Assembly: GCF_036345255.1 (NCBI RefSeq)
Contig: NZ_CP107783.1
Location: forward strand, 8,487,001-8,551,000
Direction: 5' to 3'
Length of the DNA stretch: 64,000 nucleotides
Source of the DNA: Streptomyces sp. NBC_00569
Lineage (GTDB): Bacteria > Actinomycetota > Actinomycetes > Streptomycetales > Streptomycetaceae
Shown here piece by piece: positions 7,218 through 64,000 of this stretch; the first letter of the stretch is position 1; every line of letters starts with the position of its first letter. Made by a program: the position numbers and the translations under genes. Below the pieces are notes generated by a model. It saw nothing but the letters and a program-made list of their open reading frames with translations. It had not been told where the DNA came from and did not search any database.

Positions 7218-8162
7218 ATGGCCCGCATCCGCACCATCAAGCCCGAAGCCTTCGCGTCCGAATCTCTCGCTGCGGTCTCTCTGACCGCCGAACGGACCTT
7301 CTTCGGCCTCCTCACTCAAGCCGACGACCGCGGCCGCTTTCGCGACCAACCTGCCGTCATCGCCGGCTTGCTGTGGTCCCTGCGTCCGGGCCATGGGCCC
7401 ATGGGGGTCGAGGATGACCTCATCCAACTCGCTGCCGAAGACCTCATCTGCCGTTACACAGGTGACGACGGCAAGGCCTACCTCCACGTCGTCACTTGGT
7501 CCCGGCATCAGCGGATCAACCGGCCCAGTGGCGTACGCACCCCCCCTTGCCCGCATCACGACCAGGAGCCGGCCGACCGGGTCGAGGATGCGAGCACGCG
7601 ACGAGTGCTCACGGAGGACTCACGGACGGCTCACGAGGCTGACAAGCGACTCTCACCCCAGCCTGCGGACGTGCCCGAACGCCTCGAAATAGCAGGCCAG
7701 AGAGTTGTATTGGAGGGCTCTGCCCAAGCTCAGGCGCAGCTCACTGAGCCCTCGGTGAACCCTCACACTCCGGATCTAGGACCTAGGAACCTGGATCTAG
7801 GAACTACTTCCCCTTCGGGGAGCGCAAGCGCTCCCGCGTCCCAGCACCTCTCCGCCCAGCAGCTCATTGCCGAATACGCCGCTGCCTGCACACACCGACC
7901 GCCCAGCGGAGTCCTGGGACATCTGGGCCGGGAGACGGTGAAACTCCTCTCGGAAGGCATCGCCCCGGCCCACATCCGCTCGGGGCTGAGCCTGCACCGG
8001 GCCAAGGGCCTACACCCCAGCACCCTGCCGAGCCTCGTCCACGAAGCGATGAATGCCTCCAGGACCAACTTGGACCGGCCGGACTCCCGACCTAACGTGC
8101 CCGCCCATCGGGCCTGGGCCAACCCCGCCGACCCTGCCGCCGCCTACGCCGAGGAGCTGTGA
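7218..8162 (+). CDS. replication initiator-like protein (phage/ICE type)
   Basis: The ATG at 7218 gives 314 residues opening with MARIRTIKPEAFASESLAAV and then LTAERTFFGLLTQADDRGR. This signature is typical of phage replisome organiser and winged-helix initiator proteins of actinophages and ICEs. A low-complexity linker (about residues 120-200) precedes a C-terminal domain with LHRAKGLHPSTLPSLVHEA. It overlaps the following DnaC-like gene by one base, the classical initiator/loader pairing, supporting autonomous replication of the excised element. Confidence 0.75.
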   Translation: MARIRTIKPEAFASESLAAVSLTAERTFFGLLTQADDRGRFRDQPAVIAGLLWSLRPGHGPMGVEDDLIQLAAEDLICRYTGDDGKAYLHVVTWSRHQRINRPSGVRTPPCPHHDQEPADRVEDASTRRVLTEDSRTAHEADKRLSPQPADVPERLEIAGQRVVLEGSAQAQAQLTEPSVNPHTPDLGPRNLDLGTTSPSGSASAPASQHLSAQQLIAEYAAACTHRPPSGVLGHLGRETVKLLSEGIAPAHIRSGLSLHRAKGLHPSTLPSLVHEAMNASRTNLDRPDSRPNVPAHRAWANPADPAAAYAEEL

Positions 8163-8875
8163 TGCGCGACCACGACGCCCAGCCCGTCGGCGGCCTGGCC
8201 CGACGCCTCGCGGGCATCCTCGCGGCTCGCGGCCAGGACCCCACCGCACAACCCTCCTACGAACCGGAACGGCTACCCGCCCTCGAACTGGGCGAGGCCC
8301 GCATCCCCACCCGCTACCAAAGGGCCGTCGCTGATCACCCCGCCGTCGCCGCCTGGGTGCGCGAGGTCGCCGACGGCGGACGCCCCGGCCCCCAAGGCGC
8401 CCCCGGACTCGCCGAAGGCCGATCACTCCTGATCGTCGGCACCACCGGCACCGGCAAAACCCATCAGGCCTACGGAGCCGTGCGCTCGCTCCTGATCGCC
8501 GGAGTCCGACTGCGCTGGAAAGCGATCACCGCCGCCGACCTCTACGCCGAACTGCGCCCCAGGCCCGGACACGACGGCGAACGGGAACTGATGGACCTGG
8601 CCCGCTGCCCCCTGCTGATCATCGACGACCTCGGCGCCGCCAAGTACAGCGAATGGACCGAGGAGATCACGATGCGGCTCATCAACCGCCGCTACAACGC
8701 GATGCTCCCGACCCTGATCACCACCAACCTCGGCATGGCCGACCTACGCACACACATCGGCGACCGCGTCGCCTCCCGCCTGACCGAGATGACCGACCGC
8801 GTCATCCTCGACGGGCCCGACCGTAGACGCGCCCTCGCCGCCGAGCGCTACGCCTCAGCGGCGGCCCGCACCTGA
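8162..8875 (+). CDS. DnaC-like AAA+ ATPase (helicase loader)
   Basis: The protein has 237 residues from ATG 8162, whose first base is the last base of the upstream TGA; GTG 8159 is an alternative start. Walker A GTTGTGKT (93-100) and Walker B LLIIDDLG (151-158) are followed by a sensor-like LITTNLGMADLRTHIGDR stretch, as in DnaC/IstB-type loaders. It should load a replicative helicase at an origin bound by the upstream protein. A DnaB-N-like protein at 28.1-29.3 kb may be a partner. Confidence 0.85.
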   Translation: MRDHDAQPVGGLARRLAGILAARGQDPTAQPSYEPERLPALELGEARIPTRYQRAVADHPAVAAWVREVADGGRPGPQGAPGLAEGRSLLIVGTTGTGKTHQAYGAVRSLLIAGVRLRWKAITAADLYAELRPRPGHDGERELMDLARCPLLIIDDLGAAKYSEWTEEITMRLINRRYNAMLPTLITTNLGMADLRTHIGDRVASRLTEMTDRVILDGPDRRRALAAERYASAAART

Positions 8876-11487: not shown

Positions 11488-13233
11488 GTGGTCCCGGACA
11501 TCTCTACCGGCAGCCGTACGTACGGACTCCTCGCCTATCTCTATGGGCCCGGCCGCCGGGACGAACACACCGCCCCGCACATCGTCGCCGCCTGGAGTCA
11601 GGAACTCGCCCCAGACCCCGGCCGCGACCCGGCCGCCACCCTCAAGCAGCTCACTGACCGACTCGACCTCCCCGTTCTCGCCCTGCCGAAGGACCAACGC
11701 CCGGTCCGGCACGTGTGGCACTGCCCCGTACGCACCGCGCCGGGCGACCGGCACCTCACCGATGCCGAGTGGGGCGAGGTAGCCCGCCGCATCGTCCACG
11801 CCACAGGCATCGCCGAGGATGGCGACGACAAGGCATGCCGGTGGATCGCCGTACGCCACGCCGACGACCACATCCACATCGTCGCCACGCTCAAGCGCGA
11901 AGACGGACGCAGTCCCCGCCGCCACGAAGACGGCATTCGCGCCCAGGCCGAATGCCGCAAGATCGAAAGGGCATGGGGCCTGCAGATCCTCAACCAGGGT
12001 GACGGAACCGCTGCTCAACGCCCGACCAGTGCCGAACGCTCCAAGGCCGAACGCACGGGCCGGGCCGAACCGCCCCGCGAAACGCTACGCGAGCAGGTCC
12101 GCCAGGCCCTGACCGGAGCCGCCGCCGAGGACGAGTTCTTCCGCCGCCTCACCGAGGCCGGCCTGCGTCTCGAAAAGCGCATCGCCCCCTCCGGCGACAC
12201 CATCGGATACAAGGTCGCCCTGCCAGGTGACCGCAACCGCGACGGACAGCCCATCTGGTTCCCCGGCTCCAAACTCGCCCCCGACCTCTCCCTCCCTAAG
12301 ATCCGGGAACGCCTTGAAGCTGGAACCGTCGACAACGGGCCAGCCCCCGGCGGCCCGGTCCACCCGTCCTCCCGACCGGCCCGCGCACGACGTAACGCCA
12401 CCCACGTTGCTGAGCAGGCGCTCACGACACTCGCCGGAGACCACGACGGAGATATAGCCGCGCAGCTCGTTGGAGTCGGCGAACTGCTCGACGCCGTCGC
12501 CCAGACGGCCCCGGCCTCCACCCGCAAGGAACTCTCCGAAGCAGCCCGCACCTTCGAGCGCGCCACCCGCTCCCACATCCGTGCCGAGCACGCCGACCAT
12601 CGCGCTCTACGGTCCGCTGCGCGCGGCATCGTCCGTGCCGGCAACGCCTTGGGCAAAGGCGAGGACGGCGGTAGCACCGCGATGCTTCTGTCCACCATGG
12701 TCCTCGTCACCATCGCCGCCATCCGCTGGCACTCCGCCCGCGGACACGCCCAACAGGCCGCTGCCGCCCGGCAAGCCGCCCAACACCTGCGCGCCGCGTA
12801 CCGAACCGCTGCCGCCACCCCCATGAACACGATGCGCGCGCAGGGCCGCCAGCTCCCCGCTCCCGTCCGCGACTGCTACGCCCACACCCTCGAAGGTGCC
12901 CTCCCCGCACAGGCCGACCACCTCCTGTGCGAACCCGGCTGGGACGCCCTTGCCGCCACCCTCGCCCAAGCCGAACAAGCAGGGCACGATCCCGAGACGC
13001 TCCTTCAACAAGCCATCGAATCTCTCGAGTTGGACACCGCTGACAACGTCACCGACGTCCTCGTCTGGCGACTGCGTAGCATCGGAGAGCTGCCCGCAGC
13101 TGCCATCTCAGCCCGCGGACGAACGAACCCCCGATTGCACCCGCCACAGCCCCAGGCCCCGAAGCCAACGACACCCGAGTCTCCGGCCCGGAGGGGAGTG
13201 AGCAGCTCGCGCAGGCCAGGCCCTCGGCGCTGA
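11488..13233 (+). CDS. relaxase/mobilization nuclease
   Basis: The GTG at 11488 gives 581 residues. The three-histidine metal site HADDHIHIVATLKRE (H124, H128, H130) follows an upstream RPVRHVWHCPVR motif, as in relaxase/mobilization nuclease proteins of actinobacterial ICEs. The likely catalytic tyrosine is Y12 or Y19 near the N-terminus. A single hydrophobic segment near residues 395-412 (AMLLSTMVLVTIAAIRW) could anchor the C-terminal half to the membrane or channel. It should nick oriT and pilot the single strand through the type IV secretion channel encoded at 52-60 kb or a similar one. Confidence 0.88.
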   Translation: MVPDISTGSRTYGLLAYLYGPGRRDEHTAPHIVAAWSQELAPDPGRDPAATLKQLTDRLDLPVLALPKDQRPVRHVWHCPVRTAPGDRHLTDAEWGEVARRIVHATGIAEDGDDKACRWIAVRHADDHIHIVATLKREDGRSPRRHEDGIRAQAECRKIERAWGLQILNQGDGTAAQRPTSAERSKAERTGRAEPPRETLREQVRQALTGAAAEDEFFRRLTEAGLRLEKRIAPSGDTIGYKVALPGDRNRDGQPIWFPGSKLAPDLSLPKIRERLEAGTVDNGPAPGGPVHPSSRPARARRNATHVAEQALTTLAGDHDGDIAAQLVGVGELLDAVAQTAPASTRKELSEAARTFERATRSHIRAEHADHRALRSAARGIVRAGNALGKGEDGGSTAMLLSTMVLVTIAAIRWHSARGHAQQAAAARQAAQHLRAAYRTAAATPMNTMRAQGRQLPAPVRDCYAHTLEGALPAQADHLLCEPGWDALAATLAQAEQAGHDPETLLQQAIESLELDTADNVTDVLVWRLRSIGELPAAAISARGRTNPRLHPPQPQAPKPTTPESPARRGVSSSRRPGPRR

Positions 13234-16713: not shown

Positions 16714-16761
16714 GGGCGGACTCTCGCACGCGGGAGGTGAGCCTGTGAACATCCCGTAGGG

Positions 16762-16812
16762 TCCGTGATCGGATCGAACCGACGTCACCCGACTTGCAAA
16801 CGGGTCCCTGAA
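16762..16812 (-). other. tRNA-like 3'-half relic (low certainty)
   Basis: On the minus strand the segment reads like an anticodon arm with loop TTTGCAA (TGC anticodon) followed by a GGTTCGATCC T-arm. The anticodon stem is imperfect, the T stem only fits with a short loop, and no acceptor or 5' half is present. It could be a scar of a tRNA-targeting element or chance similarity. Confidence 0.25.
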
Positions 16813-17204
16813 CAACTTGGGCACACGGTCGTGTTGTGCACGAGTACGACCGTAGGGCGGGCAAGCGGGAACGCGTCGTGCTGTACAGCAGCGAAGTACA
16901 GCAACCACGGCAGCTGTCCCCAGCCCACACCGCCCCCCCAGCGGCCGACTGACCAGCCGGCAGACCTCAGCGACCACCGTGCCGAGTAGTTCGCATCGAG
17001 GGGCGATGACGTCCGGCTGGCGTCAACGACGCCGGACGGAGGTGTACACGAGCGCTCCTGTCCGACCGCAGTGACGGCAGCGCTGACGGCAACGACGGCG
17101 GACGGCAGCGGCATTCGGCGGCCCGGCACGGTGCCGGCATAAGTCGATCGGGCGAACTCACCAAGGCGTGCCCGCATCTTTTTAAGCGCTCGGTCGCTCG
17201 GAAC

Positions 17205-17332: not shown

Positions 17333-17380
17333 CCGCCCTTACAAGGCAGAATCGGCGGTTCGAAGCCGTCCGCACCCACC
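17333..17380 (+). other. tRNA-Val(TAC) 3'-half relic, probable att site
   Basis: CCGCC (17333-17337), loop CTTACAA with anticodon TAC, and GGCAG (17345-17349) form an anticodon arm with one mismatch. GGCGG-TTCGAAG-CCGTC (17354-17370) is a complete T-arm. CGCACCC-A-CC (17371-17380) is the acceptor 3' strand and discriminator. No 5' half exists upstream. A lone tRNA 3' half is the classical scar left by an element integrating into a tRNA gene. The variable loop is one base short, so it has begun to decay. Confidence 0.6.
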
Positions 17381-17545: not shown

Positions 17546-18355
17546 CTACCGTCCCTCGGCCAGGTGGTCAGCGAGCAAGGCAGCGTGGCGAGCCATCCCC
17601 TGCTTCCACTCGATCGGCGACTGCTCGGAGATCTCGCGCCACAGTGCGGCCGTGGCCATCCCGAATGCTGCGAGCGCTCTGGGCTCGGCGTTGTGCCACG
17701 ACGGGAACCGGTCGGCGAACCTGAGCGCATCCTCAACCGAGTGGCCGGCATCCATGAGCCGCAGCGCCAGCGCCCCTGGATCGATCCAGGCTGCGCCACG
17801 CGTCGGCCACGCCCAGTCGACGAGGCGGGCCCGGCCGCCGGTGATCAGGATGTTGTCAGGGGCGAAGTCGGTGTGGAGCAGCGCCCCGCCGGCGAAGTAG
17901 TGCAGCGTTCCGGGCGGCGCATAGTTCTTCCACCGGTCCGCGGCCTCCTTGATCTCGACGTCGGCTGGCGCGCGCACGGCCTGGAGCTCGGCGAGCGCGG
18001 CCTGGACGAGTGGGAGGTCCAGGGATCCGGGCGCGTAGTCGGCATGGCGCCCGTCGACGACCTCATATCCGAGCAGGCTCCACCCCGCGGCCTCCACGTA
18101 CCAGAACAGGCGGGGGCAGGAGGCGGGCAGGTGCGGGGCAATGGCGGCCTCGCGGCGCTGCGCGTCGACCTGATGGTGGTCGACGGGAATGCCCTTGACG
18201 AACACCGGACCGGAGTCTGTGTCGAGGACGGAGGCGATGCCGGAGTTCATGCCGCCGGACACTGTCACGGCCTGATGCACGGCGCCGGTCTTGTCGGCGA
18301 CAGCCCGGCGGGTGTCGGCGGGGAGCTGCTCGAAGGCGATGCGGGGGATGGGCAC
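17546..18355 (-). CDS. APH-like phosphotransferase, RiPP operon candidate
   Basis: The 269-residue protein has the aminoglycoside-phosphotransferase/choline-kinase fold motifs: catalytic LLHTDFAPDNILI (Brenner HxDxxxxN) at about residues 159-171 and the metal-binding LVDWAWPTRG after it. The N-terminus VSGGMNSGIASVL is a nucleotide-loop-like segment. It lies 81 bp downstream of the precursor-like peptide gene on the same strand, behind a hairpin. The substrate is unknown: the modified peptide, a small molecule, or a resistance role are all possible. Related enzymes are frequent in natural-product clusters. Confidence 0.75.
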   Translation of the reverse strand: MPIPRIAFEQLPADTRRAVADKTGAVHQAVTVSGGMNSGIASVLDTDSGPVFVKGIPVDHHQVDAQRREAAIAPHLPASCPRLFWYVEAAGWSLLGYEVVDGRHADYAPGSLDLPLVQAALAELQAVRAPADVEIKEAADRWKNYAPPGTLHYFAGGALLHTDFAPDNILITGGRARLVDWAWPTRGAAWIDPGALALRLMDAGHSVEDALRFADRFPSWHNAEPRALAAFGMATAALWREISEQSPIEWKQGMARHAALLADHLAEGR

Positions 18356-18383
18356 GCGCTGATCCTCGGAGAATGGGGGGGAT

Positions 18384-18415
18384 GCCGCCCCGGCCAGAGT
18401 ACGGGCCGGGGCGGC
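18384..18415 (-). terminator. 12-bp perfect hairpin between peptide and kinase genes
   Basis: GCCGCCCCGGCC (18384-18395) and its exact complement (18404-18415) flank an 8-nt loop, between the stop of the peptide gene and the start of the phosphotransferase. It could stabilise the peptide mRNA and reduce read-through, so that peptide exceeds kinase. Confidence 0.6.
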
Positions 18416-18436
18416 ACGGTGGTGCAGGGTGCGGTT

Positions 18437-18649
18437 CTAGTAGGGCTGGTCGTCGCCGGCCGAGCAGGAGCACTTGGCGCCCTCGGCGGCCACGTCGAGA
18501 TCGGCGATGATCTGGAACTCGTCCGCGCGGATCGGCGTCGCGGTCAGCGGGAGCGGCGGGGTAGCGGTCGCGTGTGCGGGCGGCCGGGTGCTGATGGTGA
18601 GCATCACGGGCTCGCGCGGCGGGGCAATAGTGGCGGTGGGCGGTGTCAT
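18437..18649 (-). CDS. putative radical SAM RiPP precursor peptide
   Basis: Seventy residues start at an ATG that overlaps the radical SAM stop (ATGA), so translation is coupled. A Pro/Thr-rich N-terminus leads to a conserved-looking leader, IRADEFQIIADLDVAAEG, and a short tail AKCSCSAGDDQPY with C60 and C62. A small ORF with an acidic leader and a Cys-containing C-terminus directly after a SPASM radical SAM enzyme is the usual layout of a ribosomally made, modified peptide. The core is probably the last 10-14 residues. ATG at 18604 is an alternative start. The peptide class is not one I can name. Confidence 0.65.
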   Translation of the reverse strand: MTPPTATIAPPREPVMLTISTRPPAHATATPPLPLTATPIRADEFQIIADLDVAAEGAKCSCSAGDDQPY

Positions 18650-19755
18650 GATCCGTAACCTCCGTGTTGGCAGTAGAGTTCTCGTCGATCCCCCGCCTCC
18701 TGGTAGAGCTTGGCCAGCGGTCGGCACGTTCGGCACGTGCCGACCTTTGTGCAGCCGGAGCAGCCACCGGTGCGGAGCTGTAGGGACTCGGCGATCTGGC
18801 CGAGCCGAGGGAGGGTAGCCAGGCCCTCGGTGATCAGGTTCACGCTCGGGTCGCGGCCGACCTTGCAGATCGAGGCGATGCCGTGTGGGTTGACGTGGAA
18901 GAAGGTGTGGCCCGCGTTGCAGCCGGTGAAGACGCTGCGCGGAGTGATGTGGCTCTCGGCCTGTGTGGCGAGGGGGTTGGCCTCGCCGTCGATCGTCGGC
19001 GACATGTTCGTGAAGACCTGATGCGGGAATCCGTACCGTTTGCACAGGGCGACCATGTCGTCGACCTCGTGGGCGTTGTCGTCCGAGACGATGACGTTCA
19101 GGCGGACAGGAAGTGCGTCTTCGTGGGCGGCGTCCAGGCCCTTGATGAACCGGCCGAACGCACCGCGGTTCCGGGTGACCTTGTCGTAGGTTTCTGCGGT
19201 CGCCCCGTACACGCTGAGGGTGAGCCGGTAGGGGCGGTGCCGGGCGAACAGCTCACGGATCGGAGCTTTCCGTAGGGACGAGCCGTTCGAGGAGACCTGC
19301 ACCATCATGCCCAGCTGGTGGGCGTATTCGTAGGCCGCGCCGAATTCTCGGTCGATGAGGGCCTCGCCGCCCGTGATCTGTAGCCACAGGACGCCGGCGT
19401 CGCGCATCGTGCGGAGGAGTTGTTGTTTGCCCTGCCAGTCGAGGCCCTTGAACCGCTTCTCTCCGAGATAGCAGAACTCGCAGTCGTAGTCGCAGCCGAG
19501 GTTGATCTCCCAGGATGCTTTCGCGTACCCGTACCGGGAGCGCTCGCGGACGAGGAGGTCCGCAGTCAGGGGCCGGTCCAGGGTCAGCCCCCATGCCTGG
19601 CGGGCGGCGTCGTGCAGCCAGACCGGGGCGGCGTCCGGCCCAGTGCGGGCGCGTAGCTCGTTGTAGCGGGCCTCAGGGATGCGGACGCCGGAGGGATGAC
19701 CGGGGTGCAGGAGGAGGTAGTCACTGAGGAACGGGCTGGCGATCAGTCGGTGCAC
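18646..19755 (-). CDS. radical SAM/SPASM peptide maturase
   Basis: The 369-residue protein has the radical SAM cluster motif CDYDCEFC (C88, C92, C95) and ITGGEAL (SAM-binding GGE, 129-131). The C-terminus has a SPASM-type cysteine set: C279-x12-G-x4-C297, then C332, C335, C341, C344 and C362, enough for two auxiliary [4Fe-4S] clusters. Such enzymes make thioether, C-C or other crosslinks or epimerise residues in peptides. It overlaps the precursor gene by four bases. An N-terminal extension of about 80 residues may recognise the leader. It starts 180 bp after the upstream gene, probably from its own promoter. Confidence 0.85.
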   Translation of the reverse strand: MHRLIASPFLSDYLLLHPGHPSGVRIPEARYNELRARTGPDAAPVWLHDAARQAWGLTLDRPLTADLLVRERSRYGYAKASWEINLGCDYDCEFCYLGEKRFKGLDWQGKQQLLRTMRDAGVLWLQITGGEALIDREFGAAYEYAHQLGMMVQVSSNGSSLRKAPIRELFARHRPYRLTLSVYGATAETYDKVTRNRGAFGRFIKGLDAAHEDALPVRLNVIVSDDNAHEVDDMVALCKRYGFPHQVFTNMSPTIDGEANPLATQAESHITPRSVFTGCNAGHTFFHVNPHGIASICKVGRDPSVNLITEGLATLPRLGQIAESLQLRTGGCSGCTKVGTCRTCRPLAKLYQEAGDRRELYCQHGGYGS

Positions 19756-19935: not shown

Positions 19936-20139
19936 CTAGTCGGCCTGCGTCTCGCCGGGCCGGCGCGGCCAGCTCGTGCCGACGCGGAAGCCGTTGCGGA
20001 GCGGGCCGGTGTAGAAGTTCTGGTGTTCGCCGTAGTGCCCGGCCTGGAGCGTGCAGCGCCGCGTGCTTTCGGGTTGGCGGATGAAGCAGATGCCGGGGAT
20101 CTCGACGTGATCGAGGGGCGCCGTGCGCTTCACGTTCAT
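19936..20139 (-). CDS. small conserved-looking Streptomyces protein
   Basis: The 67 residues from ATG 20139 begin MNVKRTAPLDHVEIPG and contain CFIRQPESTRRCTLQAGHYG, with two cysteines and a histidine that could bind metal. It overlaps the preceding gene's stop (ATGA). I know similar small proteins from Streptomyces accessory regions but no function. It is last in a three-gene coupled run. Confidence 0.6.
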   Translation of the reverse strand: MNVKRTAPLDHVEIPGICFIRQPESTRRCTLQAGHYGEHQNFYTGPLRNGFRVGTSWPRRPGETQAD

Positions 20140-20474
20140 CGGTCGTCTCCCGCGAACCGCTCGAGGCCGAGCAGCGCGCGTCCCAGTGCGCTCACCGTGA
20201 GGGACGCCGCGAGGCAACTCGGGCTCAAGCCGTCGCACAGGATCGCTTCCGCCTCGTCCACCGCGCGCTCCCGTGAGGCACGCTCCGGCCCGCCGGGCGC
20301 GTCCTCGACCTGAGCGGCCACGACCGGTAGCCGTACCTGGATCATCTGCCGGGCCGCCGCGTACAGGTACCGCAGCCGATCAGGGCCGGGGTAGTCGCGC
20401 GGCGCGGACAGCGCCGCCCTGATCACCTCGCCTGCCGTGGGCGCCGGCAACGCAGTGCCTCTGAGAACCGTCAT
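20136..20474 (-). CDS. DUF6415-like protein
   Basis: The 112 residues from ATG 20474 include RAALSAPRDYPGPDRLRYLY and AVDEAEAILCDGLSPSCLAA, a pattern I associate with the DUF6415 family, whose members often lie near natural-product or accessory genes in Streptomyces. All-helical, no catalytic motif. It is coupled by four-base overlaps to genes on both sides, so the three probably act together. Confidence 0.6.
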   Translation of the reverse strand: MTVLRGTALPAPTAGEVIRAALSAPRDYPGPDRLRYLYAAARQMIQVRLPVVAAQVEDAPGGPERASRERAVDEAEAILCDGLSPSCLAASLTVSALGRALLGLERFAGDDR

Positions 20475-20935
20475 CCGAACGCCTCCGCAAGGATGCGGGG
20501 CCCGCCGGGACCGAGCGCGGAGGCGAGATGCACGGGGTCGGTTAGCCGACCGCGGCCGTCGGGTGCGTGGAGCCAGAACCGGCCGGCAGCGGGGCGCCTC
20601 GTGGGTGGGCAGTGTAGGGGCCAACCGGCCGGGTGCACGGTGAGGAGGCGGACGTCGGCCAGCTCCTCGGCGGCGTCGGGCGCGACCAGCCACCATGCGG
20701 TGTCGAGGTCGGGGTCGAGGAGGAGCGGCCCGCGGTGTCGTTGTGGGATGCGTCTGAGTGCCTGGAGGGCGACGCTGAGCTGTGCCTCCGCGGCAAGCCA
20801 GTGGGTGCAGTGGATCGGCGCGAGGCCGTCCATGTCCCACACTTGGTGGGCGAGTTCCGGATGGCGAGCCCAGTCGGCGAGCCAGGTGTCACCTGCCTCG
20901 CGCGCGGGTGTGGTGGTGCGCGTCGTTGCGGCCAT
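20471..20935 (-). CDS. hypothetical protein
   Basis: The 154-residue protein contains TWLADWARHPELAHQVWDMD near the N-terminus and a C-terminal half rich in Trp and Pro (PAAGRFWLHAPDGRG). It starts the coupled run 20935 to 19936. I do not recognise the family. The 87 bp between it and the XRE gene may hold a promoter. Confidence 0.55.
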   Translation of the reverse strand: MAATTRTTTPAREAGDTWLADWARHPELAHQVWDMDGLAPIHCTHWLAAEAQLSVALQALRRIPQRHRGPLLLDPDLDTAWWLVAPDAAEELADVRLLTVHPAGWPLHCPPTRRPAAGRFWLHAPDGRGRLTDPVHLASALGPGGPRILAEAFG

Positions 20936-21022
20936 GACCAGGACCGTAGGAGAGCACCTCGTGACCGGGTTGATCGATTGCGCGTGATTGCGTGCGCCCG
21001 ATCCGCGATTGCACCGGATTGC

Positions 21023-21865
21023 TTACGGAGATTCCAGCGAGGCCCGAGCCCGCCCGATGAGGCGGCGCGCATCGCGGCCGTATGCCGCAGCCTCGGTGAG
21101 CCAGTCCCACGCCCGCTCGTAGAGAGCGATGTCCGCGTCGCCGTCGAGCCACAGTTCCTCGCTGATCGTCTCGACAATGACGAGGCGTCGGTCATAGATC
21201 CAGAAGCCGTGCGCCGGGGTGCGCCGGAGCTGCGCTCCCAGAGGAATCACACCGAGCTGGACAGACGCCATCCCGACCACGTTGTACAGCCGGTCGAGCT
21301 GGGCCGCCATCACCTCCAGCGAGCACAGCCGTATGAAGAGCGCGCCCTCGGAGACGAGAAAGGTGAACGACTTCCCTGGCTCGTACAGCGCCTCTTGCCG
21401 CCGGATGCGGGATGCGACCGCCTCATCGATCGACCGGGGGATCTGCCGGAACTCGGCGTTCGCCTCGAACACGGAGCGGGCGTACTCCGGGGTCTGCAAC
21501 AGACCGGGTATGCGGGCGACTTCGAACGCCCGGATCTCCCGCGTGGCTGACGTCTCGGCGATCGCGAGTTCCTGCCGAGCATGCTGGCCGGCCGAGAGAG
21601 TGCGCCGCAGCGAGCGGTGTTTCATCTCCAGCCCGGCGAGCAGGCCGTGCAGTTCGTGGGCGACATCCGGCCTGCCGACTCCCTCGGCCCACGCCGTGAG
21701 GTCCTCGGCGCTGGGGGTCTGCTTCCCGCCCTGTAGGCGGGAGACCTTGGAAGGCTGCCACCCCAGTTGCGCGGCGAGGTCCTTGCCCTCCAGACAGGCA
21801 TCGGCGCGCAGCTCACGCAGCCGCGCGCCGAGGGCCTCTCGTGCCGTTTGAAAGTCCGTGCTCAC
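21023..21865 (-). CDS. XRE helix-turn-helix protein with DUF5753 domain
   Basis: The 280-residue protein has an N-terminal helix-turn-helix (LAAQLGWQPSKVSRLQGGKQ, residues 29-48) followed by the DUF5753 region with RAFEVARIPGLLQTPEYARS and the late VIVETISEELWLDGDADIAL block. This WhiJ/BldB-system-like architecture is abundant in Streptomyces, usually paired with a small partner. Here the partner is the DUF6879 gene directly upstream, overlapping by four bases. It may regulate the RiPP operon or a developmental signal. Confidence 0.88.
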   Translation of the reverse strand: MSTDFQTAREALGARLRELRADACLEGKDLAAQLGWQPSKVSRLQGGKQTPSAEDLTAWAEGVGRPDVAHELHGLLAGLEMKHRSLRRTLSAGQHARQELAIAETSATREIRAFEVARIPGLLQTPEYARSVFEANAEFRQIPRSIDEAVASRIRRQEALYEPGKSFTFLVSEGALFIRLCSLEVMAAQLDRLYNVVGMASVQLGVIPLGAQLRRTPAHGFWIYDRRLVIVETISEELWLDGDADIALYERAWDWLTEAAAYGRDARRLIGRARASLESP

Positions 21866-22602
21866 ACGGTGGAACGTACCTGCCTGACGACGTCTTCGGT
21901 ACGGGTGGCGTGGTGCCAGGCGGCATCGCGGGCCTGGCAGGCGGCGAGGACTTCGGCAGGGTCCTCGGTGACGTACACACCAAGGGTGGTGTCGTCCTCG
22001 TCGAACGCGAAGCGGGCGACGACGCGGGAGTCGAAGAGCCAGAAGTCGTATTCCGGCAGACGCAGGTCCTGCGCCTGCGTGCGAGCGAGGTGGCGGATGT
22101 CCTCGCCCGCGGCGACGTTCCCGAGCCCGCTGGCGAGGAGGAACTCCTGGCCCTGCGTGGCGGGCTCGTCGAGGAGACGGACGCGCTCGAAGCGCTTGCC
22201 CTGCGCGGTCTGGGCCCGGACGTTCTCACGCCACGAGTTGTCCGGATCCTGAGTGATGTCCTCACCCGCGAGGAACCGCGCCCACTTGGGACTGTTGCGG
22301 TCGGAGGCGTAGCCGCGGCGGGTCTCCAGGCGCCAGGCCGTGTGGCGGAACTCGCGGAACAGGTGGGAGATCTCGCCGAACGGCACCAGCTCGGGCGCAG
22401 GGGTGCGAGGGGCGTAGCGAGTGAGGAGCGAGCGGGGTACGCGGACGAACGTCTCGCTTGGCTTCACGTCGCGGAGGGAGACGAGGTGCTGGGGGTGGGT
22501 CTCGCGGTCGCCTTGCACGAGGTACTCATCGGTCTCAGGGATCTCGTACAGGGTGGGGCAGTCTCCGTCATCGCTGGTGGTGCCGATGAACCGCAGGGTC
22601 AT
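21862..22602 (-). CDS. DUF6879-family protein with N-terminal extension
   Basis: From ATG 22602 the 246 residues fall into two parts. Residues 1-65 (MTLRFIGTTSDDGDCPTLYE then VPRSLLTRYAP) resemble a separate small protein often found beside DUF6879 genes. Residues 70-246 carry the DUF6879 pattern FREFRHTAWRLETRRGY, SWRENVRAQTAQGKRFERVR and YDFWLFDSRVVARFAFDEDD. It looks like a fusion of two normally separate ORFs. It is coupled to the XRE/DUF5753 gene by an ATGA overlap. Confidence 0.72.
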   Translation of the reverse strand: MTLRFIGTTSDDGDCPTLYEIPETDEYLVQGDRETHPQHLVSLRDVKPSETFVRVPRSLLTRYAPRTPAPELVPFGEISHLFREFRHTAWRLETRRGYASDRNSPKWARFLAGEDITQDPDNSWRENVRAQTAQGKRFERVRLLDEPATQGQEFLLASGLGNVAAGEDIRHLARTQAQDLRLPEYDFWLFDSRVVARFAFDEDDTTLGVYVTEDPAEVLAACQARDAAWHHATRTEDVVRQVRSTV

Positions 22603-23353
22603 GTCGTCCTCCGTCAGAGGGTGTTGGAGGAACAGCATGCGCCGAGAAGGACGCCAGGATGGAGGCATTGCGTCGGATTGCAGATCAGGGAAGGCTCGTT
22701 GTGATTGCGCGCAATCAGCCCTGACGAGGGGGCCTCTCCCGCACCTGTAGACGGATCAGGCGACCGCGACCGACCACCTTGACCTTCTCAACGCAATGAA
22801 GGTCATGATCCTTCGCCTGGAGAGGGACGGCATCGCCGCGCAGGCGGAGGTGTCCGCAATCCTCGCGGAGGCCGGCGCCGGAGCGCCGGACCCCAACTAC
22901 GGATGTAGTGAAGCCCCGCCACGACGGGGGGAACGTGGCGGGGCCTGGACCCCAGCGTTGCTACTCCCCGAGCACCTCGCGCCGGGCGGCGTCAGCCTTC
23001 CTGTTTAGTGCGCCCGCCATCCGGAACAGGGCGACCGCGAGTCCGAGGAGCACGACGACGAGCAGCACCTGTGTGGCACGGAGACGATGGCGATGTCCTG
23101 CGTGGGCGCCCGCAACGATGAACATGATCACGTTGCCGGTGATCCACGCGAACCACAGCTTGAATTACTCGACCCGCACGGCCTGTTGAACCTCGTTGTA
23201 GTTCGCCACGGCGCCCGCCCCCTCGCGTTGGTGTTGAGGGGCATGATGCGACGCGGGGCGTTAGGTTTGCATGGGCGTGTCCGTGTTGTGACTTATGCGA
23301 AGCAGACGTCTTTGTAGACCACCGCGGCTACGCCGTCGAGCTCCGCCAGCACC
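22603..23353. other. intergenic with a phage-type gene remnant
   Basis: A plus-strand frame open from 22751 reads DHLDLLNAMKVMILRLERDG and AEVSAILAEAGAGAPDPNYG before running into the hairpin at 22913. It looks like the C-terminus of a phage or plasmid protein without its start. The rest (22945-23353) holds only short frames. Promoters for the DUF6879 operon (leftward) and the 23354 gene (rightward) must lie here, but none was identified. Confidence 0.35.
22913..22944. terminator. 11-bp hairpin of a repeated family
   Basis: GCCCCGCCACG (22913-22923) and CGTGGCGGGGC (22934-22944) are perfect arms around ACGGGGGGAA. Near-copies occur at 25479 and 25586. Confidence 0.65.
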
Positions 23354-28136: not shown

Positions 28137-29315
28137 TTATGACGGACGCCGATGGGTGCGACGGCCGGTGATGGCGGGCCGGGGGACTGTGGTGGACGTT
28201 GCCGACAGCGTGGTGTCCGCGAGGCGGCTGCGGGCACGTGCGGCATTGCTTCGGGCGCTCGGCGATGGGGCGCCAGGTGGGCCGAGCGATGGTCGCGGTT
28301 CCCGCTCAGCTCCGCGCGCTGTGCGAAGGCGACGGCGGACGTCGTCCAATGGACCGAGGGCGTGCAGGGCGTAGCTGATGAGCTGCCCAGGGGCGAGCGC
28401 GTCGCGGTCGGCCAAGGCGGCGACCTGCCGGGCCGTCAGCGTGGCGCTGCGGATGAGGGAGGCTTGGACGACCTGTTCGCCGAAGTGTTCGGCTGCTCCA
28501 CCGAGCAGTGGGTCACAGATCCGCCGTACGCGCTCGGGGTCGAGAACCCCGTCGGCCAGCGCACCGCGTCGCTGTGTCTCCCACAGCACGGTCAACTGGT
28601 CGATCGGTTCACCGCGATGGTGCAGTGCTCCGAGCGCGCGGTAGATCTGTTGATGACCGGGGTCGGCGAAGTCGTCGGGGTGGAGCCAGCGCACCAGGTC
28701 GAGAAGCTGCTCGGGTCGGGACGCGAGGCAACCGAGGAGGAACTCCTCATCAGCGAGTCCCTGGTCGCTGACGGGTTGGGGAGGGGTGGCTTGTTGCGCG
28801 TACGCGGCGGGCGGCTGCGCGGGCCGGGCCTCGGTTCCCCAAGCACGGGCAAGGTCGGTCAGCACATCGGAGAGCACCTGGGCGTGGTGCAGCGTCTCCT
28901 CCACCGTCCCGTTCCGGTCGTCGGCGAACGCGGCCTGGTGCAGGCGTGTGGCGTGTTGGGCGACGCTGCGGTGGATAGCGCCCTCCAGGACCATCCGTCC
29001 GTACACCGGGACGTGGTCGGGGCGCGGGCACGCCGAGATCAGGAGGTGCGGGTACGACGGGGTGAGCCCGCGGGTGTGAGTGCTCGCCTCCTGCAAGGTG
29101 TCGGTGATCCAGGCAAGTGGTACGGACCCACCCTCCGGCGCGGTCGTCGCTGGGTGTTCGGCGACCCGGAGCTTGAGCATCGCGGCGTAGAGCGCGGAGT
29201 GCGCGGGACGGGAGAAGTGCTCCGGGTGGAGCCAGCTACCAAGCCGGTCGAGCTGGCCGGGATTCAGGAATAGTGCGCCCAAGACGGCCTGCTCGGCGTG
29301 AACGAGCGGGGTCAC
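28137..29315 (-). CDS. protein with two DnaB N-terminal-like domains
   Basis: The 392 residues contain two repeats of the DnaB-N fold: EQAVLGALFLNPGQLDRLGS then LHPEHFSRPAHSALYAAML in the first half, and EEFLLGCLASRPEQLLDLVR then LHPDDFADPGHQQIYRALGA in the second. No RecA-like helicase domain or Walker motif follows; the tail is basic and disordered. It may bind helicase or primase, or dock the DnaC-like protein, to replicate the element. The GTG start overlaps the upstream 78-residue gene. Confidence 0.82.
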   Translation of the reverse strand: MTPLVHAEQAVLGALFLNPGQLDRLGSWLHPEHFSRPAHSALYAAMLKLRVAEHPATTAPEGGSVPLAWITDTLQEASTHTRGLTPSYPHLLISACPRPDHVPVYGRMVLEGAIHRSVAQHATRLHQAAFADDRNGTVEETLHHAQVLSDVLTDLARAWGTEARPAQPPAAYAQQATPPQPVSDQGLADEEFLLGCLASRPEQLLDLVRWLHPDDFADPGHQQIYRALGALHHRGEPIDQLTVLWETQRRGALADGVLDPERVRRICDPLLGGAAEHFGEQVVQASLIRSATLTARQVAALADRDALAPGQLISYALHALGPLDDVRRRLRTARGAEREPRPSLGPPGAPSPSARSNAARARSRLADTTLSATSTTVPRPAITGRRTHRRPS

Positions 29316-29548
29316 GGCTGCGCCTTGCGTGCGGCCTGGTGCTGGGCGCGAATCTCAGCAACGGCAAGGTCGGCGGCGGTCAAGGCGGTGGCAAATCGCT
29401 GCAGTTCGCCGGTGAACGCCGGGTCCGATGCGAGCAGGGAGCCGCTCTGGGACACGAGCCACCAATGGCCGCCCCGCTTCACGACGGGGGCGCCGGCGAG
29501 ACGTTCGGAGCGGCGAACGGAGGCCCAGGACGGTGTGGGGTGGGACAT
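29312..29548 (-). CDS. small hypothetical ICE protein
   Basis: The 78 residues begin MSHPTPSWASVRRSERLAGA and contain GGHWWLVSQSGSLLASDPAF and a helical end. It overlaps the DnaB-N-like start by four bases (GTGA). The family is unnamed to me but I would expect it in related ICEs by its place between virD4 and the DnaB-like gene. Confidence 0.6.
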   Translation of the reverse strand: MSHPTPSWASVRRSERLAGAPVVKRGGHWWLVSQSGSLLASDPAFTGELQRFATALTAADLAVAEIRAQHQAARKAQP

Positions 29549-29654
29549 TGGGAGTGAGTACCTCACGAGGAAGGGGCGAAGGCCCCGGGATGTACTGGCG
29601 TTCGGGGAAGTGCGCCGTCGCGTCTCGCCCTGCGGGGGTGCGTCTTCGGCGGGT

Positions 29655-31448
29655 TCACGTGGCGTGACCGATGCCGTCGCGGCGCAGGGTCTTGGCCAGC
29701 GCGCGCTCGGTGATGGCCGCGGTTTCCCTGGCGGAGGCGGCGCCGAGCTGATCGGCGTTGGGTTCGCGGTACCAGGGCTTGAGGCTGAGGAGGGCGGGGC
29801 GGATGCCTGTGGCGAGCAGGAGCGCGGAACCCTTGGGCAGGGCGCGGATCGCATCGGCGGGCAGCACGCGTTCCTGGCGCATGGAAACTGAAGTGGACTT
29901 GCCCGACTCGCTGGTGGACACCGAGACGGTACGAACGTCGTGGTCGCCCACCAGGCGGGAGAGCTTGTCCGCGAAGTCGGCGTCGTCGATACCGGAGCCG
30001 ACGAGCTTGATCGTCGCGGCCGACCAGAGCGCGTCCATGCCGGGCTCGCCCCACACTCGGACGCCCTGGCGGTAGGACTGCAGAATCGTGATCGGGATGA
30101 CGCCCCGGCTGCCGAGGTGGGAGTACAGGTCCGGCAGGTCCGCGATCTTGCATACGTTGGCGGCCTCGTCGAGGATCGCGAGCAGCGGGGCATCGAGCCG
30201 ACCACCGTCGCGCTCTGCCTGCATAACGGCCGAGCGCATCACGGCGTCGGCAGCGGCGGCGATGATCGCCGAAGCCGAGCCGCCGCCATCCTTCGACAGC
30301 AGGAACAATGTGTCCTTGCTGGTGGCGAACGCCTCGGGCTTGAACTCCCGGATCTTGTCCATCCCGCTGGGTGGGGTGACCCAGGCGGCGATGACCGGGT
30401 TGAGTAGGCAACTGGCGTACTGCCGGGCGGTTTCGAAGATTCCGTCACGGGTTTCGACGGCTCCGGCCACGGTGCCGTGGAGTTGGGCGGCGACCGCGTC
30501 GAGCCCGGCGTCCTGGAGCAGGTCGATGGGGGCGCGGTCGGCTGGGGAGGCGAGCCAGGCTAGGACGTCGGTGATCGGCCGTCGGCCGCGGGCGGCAGCG
30601 AGGAACAGCGCGGTGAGGGTATTCGCGGCGGCAGTCGACCAAAAGTCGCCCGCGCTCGATTCGTCCACGGAGGCGGTCACGAAGTGCCCGGCCAAGCGGC
30701 GGGCCCCGGCAAGATCGTGGGCGTCGGCGAGGATGTCCCACCACATCATCTGGGGGGCGTGGGCGATCTGTTGAGGATCGAGCGTCCACAGCGTGCCAGC
30801 CTCGGCGCGGGCCGCGAGCGTGGCGGTGTAGGCGTCGCGCGCCGCTTTGTTGGAGGTCAGCAGTACAGGGCCCGGCGCGCGGAGGATCGCTGGTATCGCC
30901 AATCCGGAGGTCTTCCCCGAGCGGGGCGCCATGATTGCGAGGAGGACGTCCTCCCAGGATGAGCGAACCTCCCGCGCGCCAGGGGTGAGCGTGCCGAGCA
31001 GGACCCCGCGGTCGTCGGGCGAAACGGCCTTGAGCTTGGTTCCCTTGAGGCTCGGACGGAGCTCGACCGCCTTCGCCAAGTTCTTCTTGGGCATCAGGTC
31101 GGCCAGGTCCCGCTGGTCGGCCAGCCCCTTGAGGTTGCCGCGCAGCCGGAGCCACACCTTCACCCCGAGCAGCGTGGCGGCCAGGAGGATGAGCGCAGGG
31201 AGGACGTAGCACCCGCTGATCACGGCAGGGTGGGCGAGATGCGGCCAGACCTCACCGGGGTGCAGCAGCGATTCTGTTGGTCGGAAGGAGGCCCGCGGAT
31301 CGGAGCCGACAGCCGCGTTGAGGAGGTTGCCGAACAGCCAGGCGAGAGTCCCGCCGCCCATACCGAGCGCGGCGACCGCGATCAGGAGGTAGAGGAGGAC
31401 GTCGGTGCCGGTGGTGGTCGAGGGCGTGCTGGTGCGTGCAGGAGACAA
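29655..31448 (-). CDS. VirD4/TraG-like type IV coupling protein
   Basis: The 597-residue protein has two N-terminal membrane segments (VLLYLLIAVAALGMGGGTLA, ISGCYVLPALILLAATLLG), Walker A APRSGKTSG (174-182) and Walker B LLAILDEAAN (422-431). The following VIPITILQSYRQGVRVWG is the conserved coupling-protein region. It should bring relaxase-DNA to the secretion channel and drive transfer with ATP. The channel genes now lie 21 kb away at 52.5-59.8 kb because of an inserted cargo block. Confidence 0.92.
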   Translation of the reverse strand: MSPARTSTPSTTTGTDVLLYLLIAVAALGMGGGTLAWLFGNLLNAAVGSDPRASFRPTESLLHPGEVWPHLAHPAVISGCYVLPALILLAATLLGVKVWLRLRGNLKGLADQRDLADLMPKKNLAKAVELRPSLKGTKLKAVSPDDRGVLLGTLTPGAREVRSSWEDVLLAIMAPRSGKTSGLAIPAILRAPGPVLLTSNKAARDAYTATLAARAEAGTLWTLDPQQIAHAPQMMWWDILADAHDLAGARRLAGHFVTASVDESSAGDFWSTAAANTLTALFLAAARGRRPITDVLAWLASPADRAPIDLLQDAGLDAVAAQLHGTVAGAVETRDGIFETARQYASCLLNPVIAAWVTPPSGMDKIREFKPEAFATSKDTLFLLSKDGGGSASAIIAAAADAVMRSAVMQAERDGGRLDAPLLAILDEAANVCKIADLPDLYSHLGSRGVIPITILQSYRQGVRVWGEPGMDALWSAATIKLVGSGIDDADFADKLSRLVGDHDVRTVSVSTSESGKSTSVSMRQERVLPADAIRALPKGSALLLATGIRPALLSLKPWYREPNADQLGAASARETAAITERALAKTLRRDGIGHAT

Positions 31449-63026: not shown

Positions 63027-64000
63027 TCAGATACCTGTGTTGAGCAGCCTCGCGGCCCTCCCGATAGAGGACGGCATCAGGTGCCGGTAGCTGCGGTAGG
63101 TCACCTCGATGGACTTGTGGCCCATCCATTCGGCGACATCCGTGATCGGGATGCCCATGCTGAGGCAATTGGAAGCGAAGAAGTGGCGAAGGCCGTACAT
63201 CGTGTAGGGCACCTTGATACCCGCTGAGCGCAGAACCTTCCGCCACTTACTGCGAAACGCATTTCCGCAGTAGTACGGGCTGCCGCCGACGCCGGCTCCT
63301 CCCCGTCCGCCATTGGTCAGTAGGTACCCGTGATCATCGGCGGCGTGAGTCTCCGCGTATTGCAGCAAGAATGCTCGCGTCTTTGCGGGCAGTGGCGTCT
63401 CGCGGAATTCTCCCCAGCTGCGGTGCTTGAGCGGTGCTGGTATTCGCTGGCGCCCATGAATCTGATTACTGATGCGGTAGACATCGTCGGCGACGAGCCC
63501 GTTGATGTTGGTGGCGTGTGCCTCACCGTTTCGTAGGCCACATGACGACATCATTTCCACTACGAGGCGCAAGTCTTCGTCGTGTGCGTGCTGCCTGATG
63601 AGGTTGAGCTCCTCCAGGGACGGGATGAGGATGTCCTTGCGCCGGTAGTCCGGGGGAGTGGCGTCCATGAACGGGTCTAGGCCCAGGGCACCGCGAAGCC
63701 GCGCCGAGTTGATCGCCAGACGCAGAACTTTGTACGCGGTCATCTGCGCCGCGCTGCCGATGCCGTCGAGGGCCATGTCGGCGACGAAGTCGTCCACGGT
63801 GTCGGCTGTGAAGGTGCCGATCTTGCGTGACCCCAGGCGGGGGAATATGTGCACCGTCAGAGCCCGCTCGTAGCTTTCGACGCTATTGTCCGTGAGCCCG
63901 CGTGCTCGGTGCCGAATCCAGTTGGACGCGAAGTCCTCAAGAGTCTGGACGGCGATCCTCTCTCCGTCGGAGGGGCCTGCCTTCGCTGCTCCCTTCTTCG
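63027..64000 (-). CDS. tyrosine recombinase/integrase, 5' end cut by window edge
   Basis: The frame is open to the right edge, giving 323 residues. A core-binding domain (IAVQTLEDFASNWIRHRARG to FVADMALDGIGS) leads to the catalytic domain with Arg in CGLRNGEA, YGLRHFFASN, WMGHKSIEVT and nucleophile Tyr in YRSYRHL. It would integrate and excise the surrounding element. Its att site is not visible beside its 3' end, so it probably lies to the right. The unusual GLRH in place of HxLRH is worth noting. Confidence 0.9.
   Translation of the reverse strand, partial: KKGAAKAGPSDGERIAVQTLEDFASNWIRHRARGLTDNSVESYERALTVHIFPRLGSRKIGTFTADTVDDFVADMALDGIGSAAQMTAYKVLRLAINSARLRGALGLDPFMDATPPDYRRKDILIPSLEELNLIRQHAHDEDLRLVVEMMSSCGLRNGEAHATNINGLVADDVYRISNQIHGRQRIPAPLKHRSWGEFRETPLPAKTRAFLLQYAETHAADDHGYLLTNGGRGGAGVGGSPYYCGNAFRSKWRKVLRSAGIKVPYTMYGLRHFFASNCLSMGIPITDVAEWMGHKSIEVTYRSYRHLMPSSIGRAARLLNTGI

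Follow-up and report, generated by a model that had tools for sequence, protein, structure and literature searches.

A three-gene module was found in the window, which is the whole 64,000-nt stretch of Streptomyces sp. NBC_00569 (contig NZ_CP107783.1) that was analysed and in whose positions all coordinates are given. The module consists of genes for a radical SAM/SPASM enzyme, a small precursor peptide and an APH-like kinase, all three on the minus strand of the window. Across 137 distinct related loci, the kinase gene was present in 104, and every one of these had a Tyr in the core of the precursor. We consider it fairly probable that the module encodes a RiPP pathway, in which the radical SAM enzyme would modify the core and the APH-like kinase would phosphorylate the core Tyr. 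The features of the module are as follows.

18646..19755, minus strand: radical SAM/SPASM enzyme (369 aa, GTG start), recognised by its Cys motifs
19540..19755, minus strand: N-terminal domain of the enzyme (about residues 1-72), delimited by model pLDDT and secondary structure
18437..18649, minus strand: precursor peptide (70 aa), with 77 database homologues at E<=1 and a tblastn match in 27/28 contig loci
18440..18472, minus strand: predicted core CSCSAGDDQPY (residues 60-70), from column counts, pN/pS and the Tyr-kinase association
18382..18417, minus strand: RNA hairpin between the precursor and kinase genes, from fold energy and covariation
17546..18355, minus strand: APH-like kinase (269 aa), from Pfam APH (E 0.0031) and the catalytic set

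An earlier note on this DNA had described the order enzyme, small ORF, hairpin and APH-like gene, with a 4-base overlap between the radical SAM gene and a 70-residue ORF. The gene coordinates agree with both on the minus strand, where the TGA stop of the enzyme gene and the ATG start of the precursor gene share the four bases ATGA. The enzyme, precursor and kinase genes were found together in 27 of 28 genome-contig loci, the exception (L028) holding enzyme fragments only. Because all three genes recur in these 27 loci, the set is not a chance layout. The note had also read the layout as RiPP-like, which is supported by an encoded precursor with a conserved core beside a modifying enzyme.

The precursor peptide had no NCBIfam or Pfam match at E<=1 and none in PHROGs at E<=0.001. 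Its leader is acidic, with a hydrophobic stretch around a conserved D-L-D. Over 78 precursors (that of the window and its 77 homologues), both Cys, S63, A64, D67, Q68, P69 and Y70 were invariant, and changes elsewhere in the core were rare (S61 to Thr in 2, G65 to Ser in 1 and D66 to Glu in 1). In an alignment of 24 diverse precursors, one Cys, one Pro and one leader Asp were kept in 24/24, and one core Asp in at least 90%. The pN/pS values of 24 precursors were 0.032/0.280 for the core, 0.30/0.42 for residues 2-42 and 0.23/0.23 for residues 43-58, in a set that had been picked by core and length and is thus biased towards a constant core. The values were recalculated without core selection for 28 of the 30 loci with an enzyme identity of at least 65% (2 were unparsed), giving 0.051/0.308 for the core and 0.209/0.350 for the leader. 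The contrast between leader and core was smaller but kept once the core-based selection was removed. The core is under purifying selection; the constraint that the note had expected for the tail appears both in its near-invariance over the 78 precursors and in the low core pN/pS of the two sets. Two other RiPP types were considered for the precursor and rejected. Two of nine precursors matched a phazolicin-type TOMM weakly (E 0.0062 and 0.019; 16.6 and 15 bits against 33), which we took as chance, and an ATP-grasp RiPP, suggested by the name of one UniRef cluster (P0142), had no ATP-grasp gene in the five annotated regions with a gene table.

The radical SAM motif CxxxCxxC of the enzyme corresponds to C88, C92 and C95, and seven further Cys are found at 279, 297, 332, 335, 341, 344 and 362. 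All ten (three radical SAM and seven SPASM) were invariant among 46 aligned homologues. The canonical SPASM spacing has an x3 gap where the window enzyme has x2, so that the set is nearly canonical, as had been noted before. Radical_SAM was the sole Pfam match of the enzyme, above its cut-off. NCBIfam gave 53 matches, and the 25 listed were all far under cut-off; neither the enzyme nor the precursor had an NCBIfam model at cut-off. The mycofactocin maturase MftC (TIGR03962; 64.8 bits, cut-off 265), the sactipeptide maturase StsB (NF045574; 61.7 bits, cut-off 625) and prokaryotic viperin (NF038283; 44.8 bits, cut-off 180) were rejected as assignments, and so was a heme-pathway enzyme, far under the curated NCBIfam cut-off. 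PADLOC gave a pVip match of 54.1 bits over residues 81-236, which probably reflects the common radical SAM core.

When fold matches were ranked for the enzyme model, SkfB and SuiB came first (ranges 3-349 and 2-363), and their structural alignments to the model show 15-17% identity. The sequence profile search placed BlsE, which has no peptide substrate, slightly above SkfB and as the best solved relative. Whether the enzyme groups with non-peptide enzymes was thus checked by fold alone, with SkfB and SuiB on top there and the profile placing BlsE above SkfB. In the model, the N-terminal domain consists of three strands followed by helices, in a block with pLDDT of 85-95. This secondary structure fits an RRE, so that the part may be a leader-binding RRE-like domain; the alignments to SkfB and SuiB start at residue 2-3, and the N-terminal part is barely tested by the fold comparison.

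The kinase scored 17.8 bits (E 0.0031) with Pfam APH (PF01636), under the gathering score of 23.2. A putative catalytic set was found at K54, E69, H161-x-D163, N168 and D180, which we take to be the Lys-Glu pair, HxD, Asn and metal Asp of the APH fold. Among 93 aligned of 98 family ORFs, K54 and E69 were kept in 92/93 each, and H161, N168 and D180 in 93/93; D163 was kept in 84/93 and replaced by Glu in 9/93. The protein was assigned as APH-like because of these motifs, and since related genes are recorded as aminoglycoside phosphotransferase or kinase. The motifs thus bear out the APH-like phosphotransferase that the note had placed after the hairpin, though its Pfam APH score is below threshold. 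No credible solved relative of the kinase came out of a sequence search.

Relatives of the enzyme (E<=1e-60) were found in 55/295 genomes of the genus, 16/394 of the class and 5/396 of the phylum, as well as in 6/35 and 37/341 genomes of two further families (the sets overlap). Members of this family were found in actinobacteria as well as in some plasmids and phages. Six plasmid records had relatives, one of which is 11.8 Mb long and probably a chromosome; the phage relatives come from one phage in two records. A motif-bearing small ORF was present 3' of the enzyme gene in 137/137 distinct loci kept. Four rows were without a small ORF, one with the enzyme in pieces (L028) and three at contig ends (L044, L166 and L208). 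The variants of the core in these downstream ORFs include CSCNAGDDNPY, CSCDAGDDNPH, GCGDDNPYN, GCNDDNPYK and GCGNDNPF, and the pattern C-x(1-3)-[D/N]-D-[N/Q]-P-[Y/H/F/N] fits 125 of 137 cores. The earlier proposal that homologous loci carry a downstream small ORF with a conserved CxCxAGDDxPY-like end therefore held for the conserved end and for its position, but CxC was not universal (96/137); residues beyond the Tyr were found in 33/137. A search with a precursor profile gave 851 precursor-like proteins at E<=0.01, predicted from sequence, and in the best 120 of them the residue after Pro was Tyr in 110 and Phe in 6, with 4 unparsed.

Several of the loci differ in layout. In Streptomyces phage Success (L149, 266-2380) the whole module is present as genes 3-2-1, annotated as oxidoreductase, hypothetical protein and kinase, and the small gene ends in GCGDDNPYN. 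Nine viral contigs (L209-L217) hold the enzyme and the precursor, with the kinase in L209, L210 and L214-L217, and with GNAT and no kinase in L211-L213. A Mycobacterium MAG contig (L026) has the kinase and the GNAT gene together, lined up with enzyme and precursor, which is possibly the ancestral four-gene layout.

Kinase and GNAT acyltransferase genes were scored by tblastn in the same-strand sequence downstream (up to 3 kb for the kinase), in locus sets of 111, then 129 and then 137 with the viral contigs. In the final set, 31 loci had His (16), Phe (12) or Asn (3) instead of the core Tyr; none of these had the kinase, 29 had a GNAT acyltransferase and 2 had neither. Tyr without the kinase was seen at two loci (L155, and L212 with GNAT present), and kinase and GNAT together at four Tyr loci. 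The Tyr/kinase table of the 129 loci was 98/1/0/30 (Fisher p 1.5e-28, uncorrected for relatedness). A profile of 93 kinases found no match at E<=10 in the open frames of at least 60 aa of 33 kinase-less loci; as a control, it found 98/98 positives, most of them training sequences. At L155, GNAT-like and kinase-like genes were seen by eye downstream on the opposite strand and are possibly unrelated. At L086 (11105-11581) and L154 (6346-6858), whose cores read GCGNDNPF and GCGEDNPF, the place of kinase or GNAT is taken by a third gene of another kind, encoding similar proteins of 158 and 170 aa.

A core Ser or Thr was considered as the phosphate acceptor and rejected, being present in 28/31 kinase-less loci and absent in 38/98 kinase loci of the 129-locus set. 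At 17 of these 98 kinase loci, the last 13 residues have no Ser, Thr or other Tyr, which leaves the core Tyr as the sole hydroxyl that could accept a phosphate there. Since the kinase gene tracks Tyr across loci, the core Tyr (Y70 in the window) is likely the phosphate acceptor, as far as sequence comparison can tell. The suggestion in the note that the kinase could phosphorylate the peptide can hence be sharpened to a single candidate residue, the core Tyr that the kinase gene follows.

The association was also examined on the enzyme tree, where Tyr takes 6 changes and the kinase 5. Five independent contrasts on well-supported branches went the same way in 3.7, showed no difference in 1.3 and went the opposite way in 0 (means of 200 pairings), and the sign test gave a median p of 0.125, five contrasts being too few for significance. 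Because the sign test misses 0.05, relatedness by descent could account for part of the association. If it accounted for all of it, the kinase would have some other, unrelated substrate, and the pattern would follow the lineages of the clusters. Such a link by history alone would suit the non-significant test and the 1.3 contrasts without a kinase difference; we judge it quite unlikely, given that no contrast went the opposite way and that kinase-less Phe variants arise in separate clades (L086/L154; L156/L187/L211; L159/L160/L163/L165/L200). The clade L156/L187/L211/L212 is kinase-less amid kinase-bearing kin, with Phe in three and Tyr kept in one, as if Tyr were free to change after kinase loss; in the pair L211/L212 the Tyr differs and neither has the kinase.

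Two other readings were considered. The note had mentioned self-protection, in which the kinase (or GNAT) would inactivate the finished peptide inside the producer, phosphorylation then being a resistance step and not a feature of the product. APH and GNAT families are known for antibiotic inactivation, the third gene is usually one of these two, and the Tyr-kinase rule is compatible with Tyr as the site of inactivation. This is nevertheless unlikely in our estimate, for the kinase and GNAT genes follow a residue of the precursor instead of occurring at random, and a recurring transporter was not seen among the partly scanned neighbour groups. The same lack of a recurring transporter would fit a precursor of a cofactor or signal like mycofactocin or PQQ, from which the Tyr-ended core is excised to give a small invariant metabolite. 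The core is near-invariant in the subfamily of the window (78 sequences), and its Pro-Tyr end resembles the mycofactocin precursor, which has a Tyr end. However, the enzyme scored 64.8 bits with the mycofactocin maturase profile (cut-off 265), His, Phe or Asn replaces Tyr in 31/137 loci and 33 have extra residues after Tyr, and we regard this reading as improbable.

The RiPP pathway with a peptide Tyr kinase remains our preferred reading, slightly weakened because the leader-core contrast is smaller without core selection and because peptide maturases do not stand out in the sequence profile. In this pathway, the radical SAM/SPASM enzyme would bind the leader through its putative N-terminal RRE-like domain and modify the C-terminal core, most likely by a cross-link from Cys to Asp (or Asn). 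The APH-like kinase would phosphorylate the hydroxyl of the core Tyr before or after the radical SAM step, so that the precursor would be the substrate of both enzymes. Sister clusters in which His, Phe or Asn takes the place of Tyr lack the kinase and usually have a GNAT acyltransferase as third gene. The leader would be removed by an unlinked protease; no recurrent adjacent protease or transporter was seen among the gene groups common to at least 4 of 48 loci (six groups were Pfam-scanned), and one recurrent group, found at 5 loci at a distance of about 5 kb or more, resembles an ABC ATPase on inspection by eye. We put at about even the chance that these loci represent a RiPP class of actinobacteria, plasmids and phages, in which the radical SAM enzyme cross-links a C..DD[N/Q]P core, the APH-like enzyme is a dedicated peptide Tyr kinase and GNAT is swapped in upon loss of Tyr.

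Parts of the proposed pathway have counterparts in known systems. The maturases SuiB and SkfB match the fold best, along most of the model; like the window enzyme, they carry a domain N-terminal to the radical SAM core and have a small precursor next to them. They differ in sequence (15-17% identity) and in the kinase or GNAT gene of the window family, and the window core lacks the streptide motif and does not resemble SkfA in sequence. Ranthipeptides (PapB, freyrasin) are likewise made by a radical SAM-SPASM enzyme, with a Cys followed by Asp at x3 as in CSAGD. They have six motifs and the window core one, the kinase gene belongs to the window family, short cores there read C-x-D-D, and the cross-link is a prediction here. 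According to passages of PMC9413430, PapB accepts Cys-Xn-Asp with n of 0-6. Since CSAGD has the Cys-X3-Asp spacing of PapB and PapB tolerates this range, a Cys-Asp thioether in long and short cores alike is a fair guess by analogy.

For the kinase, phosphorylated lasso peptides are one parallel. According to passages of PMC9266682, PadeK adds a phosphate to the Ser at the C-terminus of paeninodin, and precursors accompanied by the kinase gene show extreme conservation of this Ser; as in the window family, a kinase gene (PadeK/ThcoK) tracks a conserved C-terminal residue. The residue there is Ser, not Tyr, and maturation is by lasso-forming B and C proteins. The class V lanthipeptide kinase CaoK is APH-like and, in passages of PMC9486802, phosphorylates Ser/Thr of a RiPP precursor. 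CaoK acts on its Ser/Thr target together with the HopA1-like lyase CaoY, whereas the window-family kinase follows Tyr and not Ser/Thr. A class V lanthipeptide was rejected for the window, as PF17914 (HopA1) had no match in its genome at E<=0.001; the control search found it in 1/14 genomes. We know of no APH-like enzyme that acts as a Tyr kinase in RiPP biosynthesis.

The six core motifs were absent from the open-access literature searched, and no description of the peptide family was found there; subscription papers were outside the search, so a description elsewhere is possible. The searched passages of the decRiPPter paper (PMC7794033) held nothing on the peptide family. If the proposed pathway is true, Tyr phosphorylation by an APH-like enzyme would join RiPP chemistry, and the Tyr-kinase rule turns the guess about an orphan kinase into an experiment on one residue and one enzyme. 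Mobile elements and a phage also carry the conserved core, which hints at some conserved target or signal and not at a diversifying toxin.

The hairpin that the note had placed ahead of the kinase gene was borne out by its fold z-score and by covariation in relatives. The 81-nt gap between the precursor and kinase genes folds at -35.7 kcal/mol (z -3.28). In 20 of 25 copies that were aligned (those of the window and L012, each with an extra base, and three duplicates were dropped), 92.9% of cells pair, compared with 31-48% in slid controls, and changes on both sides were found at 6/17 pairs, which 1/500 shuffles equalled. At distant loci, the 140 bases 3' of the precursor fold at z<=-1.3 in 25/29 (mononucleotide shuffles). 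The hairpin is perhaps a partial terminator or a stabiliser that keeps the precursor in excess.

The surroundings of the module were also inspected. Just past the kinase gene, at 17340-17380, lies an apparent 3' half of a tRNA (tRNA-Val by reading of the anticodon loop, uncalled by ARAGORN), and a full tRNA-Cys is at 16759-16830. The half was rejected as an attachment site, since a genome search allowing up to 3 mismatches gave a single copy. Upstream genes at 19936-22668 encode a small ORF, DUF6415, a 154-aa protein, an XRE/DUF5753 regulator and DUF6879. The sole match for DUF6415 in the open-access literature concerns spiders; beside two relatives (L151 and L154) it is recorded as a natural product biosynthesis protein. 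Genes of mobile elements are present at 8162-8875, 28137-31448 and 63027-63998 (an IstB-like protein, a DnaB N-terminal domain protein, a TraG-type coupling protein and a phage-type integrase). The protein encoded at 11488-13233, relaxase-like by eye and without a Pfam match, groups with proteins found beside nine relatives.
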